Below, in pieces: positions 2,368-8,188 of a stretch of DNA of 38,594 nucleotides (its first letter is position 1; every line of letters starts with the position of its first letter). Both the position numbers and the translations under genes were made by a program. The notes beneath the pieces are model-generated. The model saw only the letters and a program-made list of their open reading frames with translations, was not told the DNA's origin and did no database searches. Source of the DNA: a virus; the IMG/VR virus record IMGVR_UViG_3300045836_000209, positions 1-38,594 of that record; one strand, given 5' to 3'.

Positions 2368-3237
2368 ATGCCCTTCTTCCAGATGGACGACACGTTTCAC
2401 TCCGAGCTGAGGGTGATCCAGGCCGGAACAGCGGCGTTCGGTCTCTATGCGCGGTGTGGCGACTGGGTGGCGGAGCATCTCACGGACGGATTCGTCCCGG
2501 CGGAGATTGCGGCTCACTTCGGCACACGCGAGTGGATCGAGCGCTTGCTGGCGTCTGGCCTGTGGTTGCCCGCTGACGGGGGGTACACGATGCCGGACTA
2601 CCTGGGCAGGCATAAGAACTGGTCGGCTGAGCGCATCAAGGCCCAGCGAGCCGCCGTCGCTGAACGGCAGGCCCGGGCGCGCTCGAGAAGGCGGCAGTCT
2701 CCGAACCCTGTGTCACAGAGTGAGTCACCCCCACAGTCACGCGTGACTCACAGCGTGAGTCACGGCGTGAGTTCGCGTTCCCCATCCCATCCCCCCTTAA
2801 AAGGGGATGGGGGTGGCGCCGCCCCGCTAAGCGGGGGCGCGGCGCCGCCACCCCAAGACCACGCACCAGTCCCGAGGGACTCACCACCCGTCTGCGCCCT
2901 CCACCACGAGCCGCACCCGTGCCGCCGCTGCATCGCCGAAGGCGCAGCCGCCGCAGCAGCACACCACCCCGCACCACGCCCCCAACCCGCCACCACGGCC
3001 AAGGCACGCGCCGACCCGCCGACGCCGGCCGCAGCCCCAGACCCCGCCTACGACCACGCCCAAGCCGTCCTGCGCCGCATCCCCCTCGGCGACCTCGACC
3101 CCCTGCTGACCGAAGCCCGCGCCGACCTCGACGCCGACGGAAACCCCAACCCCACCAGCCGCGAGATCACCCTGCGCGCCGCCGACATCTGGACCCGCCA
3201 AGACCCCCAGCCCGACCCCCAAGGACCCGAACGATGA
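2368..3237 (+). CDS. Replication-initiator-like DNA-binding protein
   Basis: A 289-residue protein. Residues 1-95 form a winged-helix/HTH-type domain (DDTFHSELRVIQAGTAAFGL, then DGFVPAEIAAHFG), closely resembling the N-terminal domain of actinophage and actinobacterial replication-initiation or DnaT-like proteins. This domain is followed by a basic helix (RQARARSRRRQ), a low-complexity Ser/Pro/Gly linker (about 115-170) and an Ala/Pro-rich C-terminal part with a helical end. The linker is encoded by iteron-like repeats and hairpins, the arrangement known from lambda O, where the origin lies inside the initiator gene. Its likely role is to bind the origin and recruit a replisome. No helicase is seen in the window. 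Confidence 0.75.
   Translation: MPFFQMDDTFHSELRVIQAGTAAFGLYARCGDWVAEHLTDGFVPAEIAAHFGTREWIERLLASGLWLPADGGYTMPDYLGRHKNWSAERIKAQRAAVAERQARARSRRRQSPNPVSQSESPPQSRVTHSVSHGVSSRSPSHPPLKGDGGGAAPLSGGAAPPPQDHAPVPRDSPPVCALHHEPHPCRRCIAEGAAAAAAHHPAPRPQPATTAKARADPPTPAAAPDPAYDHAQAVLRRIPLGDLDPLLTEARADLDADGNPNPTSREITLRAADIWTRQDPQPDPQGPER
2708..2772 (+). repeat. Iteron-like repeats, candidate origin
   Basis: Six related units occur at a pitch of 11-12 bases: GTGTCAC (2710), GTGAGTCAC (2720), an inverted ACAGTCAC (2733), GTGACTCAC (2743), GTGAGTCAC (2755) and GTGAGT (2767). AGTCACGCGTGACT (2735-2748) is a perfect 14-base palindrome. They lie inside the initiator-like gene. Repeat and palindrome are seen directly; the origin role is inferred. 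Confidence 0.6.
2786..2846 (+). other. Two adjacent hairpins beside the iterons
   Basis: CCCATCCCC (2786-2794) pairs with GGGGATGGG (2803-2811) around a TTAAAA-containing loop, and CCCCTT/AAGGGG (2793-2806) is an alternative fold. A second hairpin pairs GGCGCCG (2815-2821) with CGGCGCC (2840-2846) and CCCCGC with GCGGGG around TAA. The TTAAAA core is a rare A/T patch here and could be an unwinding site. Confidence 0.6.
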
Positions 3238-4137: not shown

Positions 4138-4451
4138 TGACACAGGCCACTGACACCGACGAGCGAAGCCAGCTTTTCAGGACCGTGCGCGCCCTCGAGC
4201 TACTCGGCCAGTCCCACGAGGCATACGAGCGCGGCGACCACGAAGCCTGCGACAAGCTCAGCATGCAAGCCCGCACCGAGACCGGCACCGACACCGTCTC
4301 GTTCATCCTCGGCGGCATGCAGATCGGCGAGATCCCCAAGCCCTACGACGAAGGCTGGCGGGCCTACCTCGACCACCAGCGCGACCGCCTGGCCGCCGAG
4401 CTCAACGCCGCGACCGAGCCGGAACCGCACGTCGACGAGGCCCAGCCATGA
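4134..4451 (+). CDS. Hypothetical helical protein, 105 aa
   Basis: Starts ATGA-overlapped with the ubiquitin-like gene; a second ATG directly follows at 4137. The sequence is mostly helical and acidic, with LFRTVRALELLGQSHEAYER followed by a second helix near the C-terminus (RAYLDHQRDRLAAELNAA). No catalytic motif is visible. Tight coupling to its upstream neighbour makes it the natural first candidate for a partner of the ubiquitin-like protein. Confidence 0.68.
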   Translation: MMTQATDTDERSQLFRTVRALELLGQSHEAYERGDHEACDKLSMQARTETGTDTVSFILGGMQIGEIPKPYDEGWRAYLDHQRDRLAAELNAATEPEPHVDEAQP

Positions 4452-4993
4452 AAGCCGCCGACTACCGCCGACGCGTCACACTCGCCATGGACGAGGACGA
4501 GCTGCTGGAGAACATCCGCCAGCTCGCCCTGACCACCGGCTGGGCGATGTACCACACCCGCGACTCGCGCGGCTCAGACGCCGGCTGGCCAGACCTCGTC
4601 CTCGCCCACCGAGCCAAGCGCCGCGTGCTTTTCGTCGAACTGAAGACCGCCCGCGGCTCACTGCGCGCCGGCCAGAAGATCTGGCTCACCGTCCTGACCG
4701 CATGCGGCCTCGAAACCGCCGTCTGGCGACCCGCCCAATGGGCCGACGGCACCATCCAGGCTGTCCTCAACGGCGCGGCTGCGCGCAGCGAGCCGCGGAC
4801 CGCGCCCGAACGCGTCCGCATGAGCCCCGAGTCCATCGAACTCATCCGCAACACCCTCGGCGTCTGGGAAGACAACGCGGCAGGGTTCGGCTGCTCCCTC
4901 CCGCACCCCGCCGAGTGGTACCGCGCCCGCATCGCCGACTTCGAGCAGCTACTCGCCCTCGTCGACCCGACCGAACCCGCGGAATCATCATGA
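4448..4993 (+). CDS. VRR-NUC domain nuclease
   Basis: A 181-residue protein with a PD-(D/E)XK core of the VRR-NUC type in its first 90 residues. GWPDL carries D49, LFVELKT carries E64 and K66, and the following G-(x)n-Q (Q76) is the family signature. VRR-NUC proteins are structure-specific DNA nucleases found in many phages, with roles suggested in recombination or branched-DNA processing. The C-terminal 90 residues are an unassigned helical extension. The core motif is complete, so the enzyme is probably active. It overlaps both neighbours by four bases. Confidence 0.88.
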   Translation: MKAADYRRRVTLAMDEDELLENIRQLALTTGWAMYHTRDSRGSDAGWPDLVLAHRAKRRVLFVELKTARGSLRAGQKIWLTVLTACGLETAVWRPAQWADGTIQAVLNGAAARSEPRTAPERVRMSPESIELIRNTLGVWEDNAAGFGCSLPHPAEWYRARIADFEQLLALVDPTEPAESS

Positions 4994-7604: not shown

Positions 7605-8188
7605 CAAGACTCTTCTACGACTGTGAGTTCATCGACGACGGCCGAACCATCGACCTGATCTCGATCGGCATGGTCTCCGACACCGGCGCCGAGTACTACG
7701 CCGTCTCCAGCGAGTTCGGCTTCGCCGCGTTCGCCCGCAACCAGTGGCTCGTCGACAACGTCTGGCCCAGCCTGCCGAGGATTGGCGGCGACGCCCGCAA
7801 CCACATCCCGACCCGCACACTGCTAGGCCGGCCGCGGCCGCAGCACAAGCTCCTGCGCGACCTCTTCGACTACAGCGCCCGCGAGGTCAAGAGCCGCACC
7901 GTCATCGCCGCGCAGGTCTACGACTTCGTCGCGTCCTTCCCGCAGCCGCAGCTGTGGGCCTGGTACGGCGCCTACGACCACGTCGCCCTGGCGCAACTGT
8001 GGGGACCGATGGTCAAGCTGCCGCGCGGCGTCCCGATGTTCACCAACGACCTGAAGCAGGAGGCCGTGCGCCTCGGCAATCCGGACGTCCCGAAGCAGTT
8101 GGCCGGTGAGCACAACGCTCTCGCCGACGCCCGCCACAACCGCGTGGTCGCCCACTTCCTCGACGACCTCGCCGCGCGCCGCCCATGA
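7601..8188 (+). CDS. DEDDh 3'-5' exoribonuclease, AS type
   Basis: A 195-residue protein with all elements of a DEDDh exonuclease: motif I YDCEF (D7, E9), motif II WYGAYDH (D126) and motif III HNALADA (H171, D176, spaced H-x4-D). The YDCEF(I/L)..G...DLISIG opening matches the AS (Rv2179c-like) exoribonuclease family found in actinobacteria and phages, which trims RNA 3' ends. A role in host RNA decay or tRNA maturation is possible, and a tRNA is encoded at 74-145. Length is normal for the family. Overlaps both neighbours by four bases. Confidence 0.88.
   Translation: MTRLFYDCEFIDDGRTIDLISIGMVSDTGAEYYAVSSEFGFAAFARNQWLVDNVWPSLPRIGGDARNHIPTRTLLGRPRPQHKLLRDLFDYSAREVKSRTVIAAQVYDFVASFPQPQLWAWYGAYDHVALAQLWGPMVKLPRGVPMFTNDLKQEAVRLGNPDVPKQLAGEHNALADARHNRVVAHFLDDLAARRP

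Follow-up and report, generated by a model that had tools for sequence, protein, structure and literature searches.

The replication-initiator gene and its surroundings

The window, the whole 38,594-nucleotide stretch of viral DNA analysed here (IMG/VR record IMGVR_UViG_3300045836_000209), carries on its + strand a replication-initiator gene encoding 289 amino acids (positions 2368-3237). This assignment, already made in the original prediction, is borne out by a profile search, in which PHROG 2447 ("replication initiation protein") matches residues 1-217 with an E-value of 1.3e-31, and by tblastn, in which the protein matched 546 phage records, all bearing the names of actinobacterial hosts. 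The N-terminal part (2368-2700, + strand) is predicted to form a winged-helix-like DNA-binding domain: the structure model of the first 111 residues has a mean pLDDT of 90.7, and its structural matches in BFVD include phage HTH proteins, replisome organizers and one DUF1376 protein. A fold search of the PDB with the initiator returned nothing at E ≤ 0.001, and Pfam recognized no domain in the window's initiator and none confidently in the ten relatives tried.

The C-terminal part (2850-3237, + strand) contains a CxxH...CxxC pattern and is variable among relatives. These parts are unlike even between close relatives, for example between the window (2850-3237) and its closest relative, L001 (3060-3463). 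The switch falls right at the putative origin described below, as if the origin resembled a recombination joint.

Elsewhere in the window, a tRNA-Met gene lying at its beginning (74-146) could mark an attachment site or represent a phage-borne tRNA, and a VRR-NUC nuclease gene (4448-4993) lies downstream of the initiator. When the first 24 kb were compared with known phages by megablast, the sole match was a DnaQ-like gene of Gordonia phages (7856-8137 of the window). A profile scan covering part of the genes that follow the initiator identified no helicase-loading partner among them.

Repeats, C-run tract and hairpins within the gene

Six related 9-base units at a pitch of about 12 bases, as originally described, are present at 2708-2775. 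They start at positions 2708, 2720, 2732, 2743, 2755 and 2767 (pitch 12, 12, 11, 12 and 12). Three of them (2720-2728, 2743-2751 and 2755-2763) read exactly GTGASTCAC, and the remaining three are 2-3 bases off. These are the only three exact copies in the whole 38.6-kb window, and no synonymous shuffle of the gene, out of 3000, reached that number. When the units are counted loosely (≤2 mismatches), the four sites found are equalled by 495 of 2000 synonymous shuffles and are not significant. The perfect 14-bp palindrome that had been reported, AGTCACGCGTGACT, was found at 2735-2748, inside a block of identical bases common to the window and L001. Palindromes of at least 14 bp also occur in 65 of 2000 synonymous shuffles, and the longest stem is matched in 74 of 2000, so that each is seen in about 3-4% of shuffles. 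From the window sequence alone, the case for an origin is moderate.

The iterons are followed on the + strand by a degenerate C-run array, CCCCATCCCATCCCCCC (2780-2796), which is absent from the original description; it is a chain of three runs, G-rich on the - strand, and a four-run version occurs in L001. In the window this array merges into two hairpins. Hairpin 1 (2786-2811) has a 9-bp stem with TTAAAA in its loop, whereas hairpin 2 (2812-2849) is GC-rich, with 16 pairs, a bulge and a TAA loop; a TTAAAA core had been ascribed to both and is thus correct for the first hairpin only. As single-stranded DNA, the pair has a predicted folding energy of -30.6 kcal/mol (z -5.1 relative to dinucleotide shuffles). 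No A+T-rich element of about 40 bp, of the kind found in lambda, follows position 2775, where the DNA is GC-rich except for TTAAAA at 2797-2802. The sign of the GC skew along the window does not change at 2708-2849, a point against an origin there from a measure that proved uninformative.

C-run arrays in related initiator genes

For comparison, 152 related initiator genes (137 distinct) were grouped into 98 clusters (N-terminal identity ≤80%, at least 150 codons). Their loci were searched for with the N-terminal domain only, except in a first whole-protein scan and in the tblastn with the entire protein by which the first seven phage records of the set were picked; the search of IMG/VR with the full-length initiator yielded one relative. 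Immediately 3' of the iterons, most relatives carry a tandem of CCC runs. Under a strict definition (CCC present four or more times on the coding strand, with 2-3 nt between successive runs), the array is present in 68 of the 98 relatives, compared with a mean of 9.5 and a maximum of 17 in 200 rounds of synonymous shuffling. The 752 neighbouring ORFs that served as a control include 4 with the C form and 2 with the G form, and no G-run form was found on the coding strand of the 98 PHROG 2447-type relatives. Linker chains of three or more runs are present in 80 of 98 relatives against 26 expected, and 13 of the 98 genes, that of the window included, have a chain of exactly three.

In 67 of the arrays (that of L135 was omitted as atypical), the spacers are 2 nt long 192 times and 3 nt long 65 times. 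Their letters vary (GA, GT, AT, TT, CT, TCA, GTA) while CCC is constant, and the arrays start in all three reading frames (37, 15 and 15 relatives). The repeats that precede the array differ by lineage and, read by eye, include GTGASTCAC, GTTCGGGCGAAC, GTTACTAAC, GAAGCAAAC and others; in the 34 codons before the array, repeats exceed the synonymous expectation (p ≤ 0.05) in 39 of 68 relatives, with 829 seen against 169 expected. The hairpin that follows the array reaches p ≤ 0.05 in just 18 of 68 relatives, a point against the origin model set out below. Such hairpins, seen in L111, L044, L061, L152 and others, often have TACG, TAAC or TAAA-type loops and a pyrimidine-rich 5' arm. Downstream of the array, mean GC content in 67 relatives drops no lower than 0.52 over 20 nt and then recovers to 0.60-0.68.

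The G-rich strand of the relatives' array fits a G-quadruplex: an RNA quadruplex energy model, which is a rough guide for DNA, predicts one in the G-rich strands of 65 of 68 relatives. For the window the same model predicts the hairpins and no quadruplex, which counts against a quadruplex there, and its chain comprises three runs, where a quadruplex-forming array has at least four G-runs in a single strand, joined by short loops.

Several further observations weigh against that model. The strict form is missing from 30 of the 98 relatives; by eye, neither iterons nor an array can be made out in the linkers of L004, L005, L082 and L116; and repeats are lacking at the linker position in several Streptomyces lineages, of phages as well as prophages. 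A CCCGW array was also found in 28 of 298 host genomes, with 2 of the 30 loci examined there belonging to the window's initiator family; by itself the array is not specific in host genomes, where CCCGW arrays are mostly unrelated simple repeats.

Conservation at the DNA level

The original prediction held that the palindromes need constraint at the DNA level, and the synonymous comparison among relatives shows such constraint for the stretch. At conserved residues of 26 independent pairs, codon identity reaches 0.814 for the iterons and 0.789 for the array; the N-terminal and C-terminal parts of the same pairs score 0.607 and 0.611, and the codons of iterons and array are better kept than the flanking parts in 21 of the 26 (p = 0.0025). 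Between the window and L001, all 14 comparable codons of iterons and array are identical (10 of 10 in the iterons), whereas the N- and C-terminal parts together agree in 69 of 96. When all 262 pairs are taken, which are not independent and often distant, iteron codons (0.566) are no better kept than those of the N-terminal part (0.559), but the array, at 0.688, is better kept. The iteron effect appears in pairs that are 60-90% alike, and its absence over all pairs is probably due to turnover of the iteron sequence between distant relatives.

In addition, nine initiators end after 108-124 residues, with their iterons and C-runs in the noncoding DNA between the stop and the next ORF. The eight short ORFs among the 137 distinct genes supply six of the nine, the DNA scan described below two more, and Propionibacterium phage Anatole the last; of the other two short ORFs, L014 is cut by the contig end and has its array in frame, and L149 has no array within 400 nt. 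Eight of the nine loci contain at least four consecutive runs, and in L021 the array is split. The nine proteins are 31-71% alike and therefore do not reflect one recent stop mutation. Iterons of the window's own GTGASTCAC type are also found in noncoding DNA, in L188 and L099.

Synonymous conservation, the noncoding copies and the use of all three frames together show that DNA rather than protein is conserved at the iterons and array. Relatives that keep the protein linker and lose the repeats, a pattern that would have spoken against the prediction, were not seen; the DNA plan is kept while peptide and coding status change.

Arrays in other initiator families

A scan of IMG/VR for five C-runs, made with DNA only, found at least 120 stretches, of which 80 were classified: 13 lie inside genes of the window's initiator family (the one in L220 being a homopolymer of C where its contig ends), 2 immediately 3' of such a gene, 4 in loci with a weak match elsewhere, and 61, many of them C homopolymers, in loci with none. 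Among the remaining stretches were other kinds of initiators, with the array on the opposite strand. These MARIRTIKP-type (PHROG 1408, 16167 and 2149) and DUF1376 initiators resemble the window's family in having repeats and then a G-run array within or just after the gene, whereas their N-terminal domain has no detected sequence kinship to that of the window's family, and their G-runs are on the coding strand rather than on the template strand.

The strict G form is present in 10 of 39 clusters of the MARIRTIKP family (shuffles: mean 0.3, maximum 2), a fraction biased upward because the query was drawn from array-bearing members and its own contig is among the 39. The C form occurs in none of the 39 clusters, and neither form in any of 174 control ORFs. 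A scan of viral contigs for (GGGAA)4GGG is free of that bias: among the 120 matches listed, 100 fall within initiator genes, invariably with the G-runs on the coding strand, and 5 more are 64-165 nt after a short initiator ORF. The permuted pentamer GGAGA, which has the same composition and no GGG, forms 46 stretches in the whole collection, compared with at least 120 for GGGAA, and 17 of the 46 are in initiators as opposed to 100 of the 120 GGGAA matches listed (p = 1.9e-8). In 73 dereplicated G-run genes, the three frames are used 31, 29 and 13 times, and significant repeats precede the array in 59. The hexamer repeat GGGACA of Pseudomonas phages is read in different frames, as GTGTG in phi297 and as QGQGQ in CF3a and D14L. 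In phi297, D14L and Pickles13, a gene for a helicase or loader comes after that of the initiator.

CCCGW arrays in four further loci (L171, L230, L370 and L378) adjoin another actinobacterial gene family on the opposite strand, possibly a further type of initiator; a ATCCAGATCCT-like box follows the array in L171, L370 and L378. In another locus (L213, 5470-6672), an HNH endonuclease domain lies between the initiator domain and the repeat and array part of a single gene.

A putative origin and alternative explanations

Homology of the initiator, the iterons, the conservation at the DNA level and the association of arrays with initiator genes make it likely that 2708-2849 functions as an origin. 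We consider it probable that this is a lambda-like origin within its own initiator gene, in which the opening element is a G-run array instead of A+T-rich DNA. The N-terminal domain of the initiator would bind the iterons at their 12-bp pitch, and the resulting strain on the duplex would open the DNA just downstream, at the C-run tract, which would thus take the place of the A+T-rich opening element of lambda. The opened G-rich strand might then fold, into a quadruplex or, in the window, into hairpins, and so leave its partner strand single for helicase loading. Because the window has three runs and two hairpins, folding after opening is extended to it by analogy.

The array could instead be a row of sites for a second protein (an initiator subunit, a loader or a host factor, acting on single- or double-stranded DNA) and form no quadruplex, an alternative to which we would give about one chance in three. 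The predominance of a 5-bp spacing (2-nt spacers in 192 of 257 cases) is what such sites would predict, and the 13 genes with exactly three runs have too few for a simple quadruplex; against this, spacer length and letters vary while CCC stays, and the polarity is reversed in other initiator families. That the arrays are functionless products of slippage, growing in weakly constrained sequence, is improbable: host genomes do contain similar arrays, as simple repeats, at numerous other sites, yet those of the initiators are interrupted, have mixed spacers and keep a constant position immediately after the iterons, and GGAGA, of the same composition, is both scarcer and less often in initiators.

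A role in the mRNA is about as improbable as slippage. The C-rich, rut-like RNA followed by a hairpin would then act as an attenuator or terminator inside the initiator transcript, and in several relatives C-rich RNA does precede a hairpin, whose loop is frequently TNCG or TAAC. However, in other families, where the array likewise comes after repeats, the RNA would be rich in G and A; the window has no T-run beyond hairpin 2 (after 2849), unlike an intrinsic terminator; and termination there would remove the rest of the initiator gene. The opposite polarity of the array in other families argues against a role at the level of RNA or of peptide alike. Least credible, with hardly any probability left to it, is low complexity of the protein only, that is, a disordered Pro/Ser linker with repeated codons. 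The 12-bp pitch does equal four codons, and loosely matched units are no commoner than in synonymous shuffles; as the sole explanation, protein repetition is ruled out by codon conservation and the noncoding copies, and the use of three frames and the different peptides made from the GGGACA repeat in phi297 and in CF3a and D14L also speak against it.

Origins are usually recognized by A+T-rich opening elements. We propose tentatively, as a generalization somewhat short of an even chance, that the G-run array is a quadruplex-based opener replacing A+T-rich DNA in many iteron origins of temperate phages, in at least three initiator families with no detected sequence kinship, on a strand that depends on the family, and moving freely between coding and noncoding DNA. 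The comparisons made here point to the repeated G- or C-run as a so far undescribed part of phage replication starts. If this is true, the element would account for the opening of origins in GC-rich phages, would make origins predictable from sequence alone in thousands of prophages, and would permit a clean test of a contribution by quadruplexes to replication initiation in bacteria.

Comparison with known systems

The mycobacteriophage Miko provides an actinobacterial comparison, although its RepA belongs to another initiator family than that of the window. The published account reports that repA with 171 bp of upstream DNA is able to support replication; the authors suggest that the origin lies either in the gene or upstream of it, and state that they identified no repeated motifs in the DNA they searched (PMC7157519). 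We found no array in the Miko repA gene. The DNA upstream of the gene nevertheless contains several CTCGAATCCTCGAGGACT-like repeats (locus L396, 1183-1427, read on the - strand). The literature search, in the portions of the sources that it covered, returned no report of, or experiment on, G-run arrays in phage initiator genes, and absence from print is unproven.

The PHROG 2447 initiators of actinophages share the N-terminal domain of the window's protein, and most have iterons and array; the array of the window differs from theirs in being degenerate and fused with hairpins, and L001 differs in its C-terminal part.

The parallel with lambda that had been drawn from the sequence is upheld, since the iterons of the window are inside the initiator gene and after the part encoding the DNA-binding domain. 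In lambda O, too, the DNA-binding domain is encoded before the iterons; the origin is in gene O, with repeats inside the initiator gene and the opening element directly after them. As described in PMC5043065, O bound to the iterons opens an adjacent 40-bp A+T-rich region, which leads to helicase loading. This tract is also purine-rich (GC 0.22 and purine 0.75 in the lambda record). The iteron sequence and the protein family of lambda are other than those of the window, and where lambda has its A+T-rich tract, the window and its relatives carry a C/G-run array or a hairpin.
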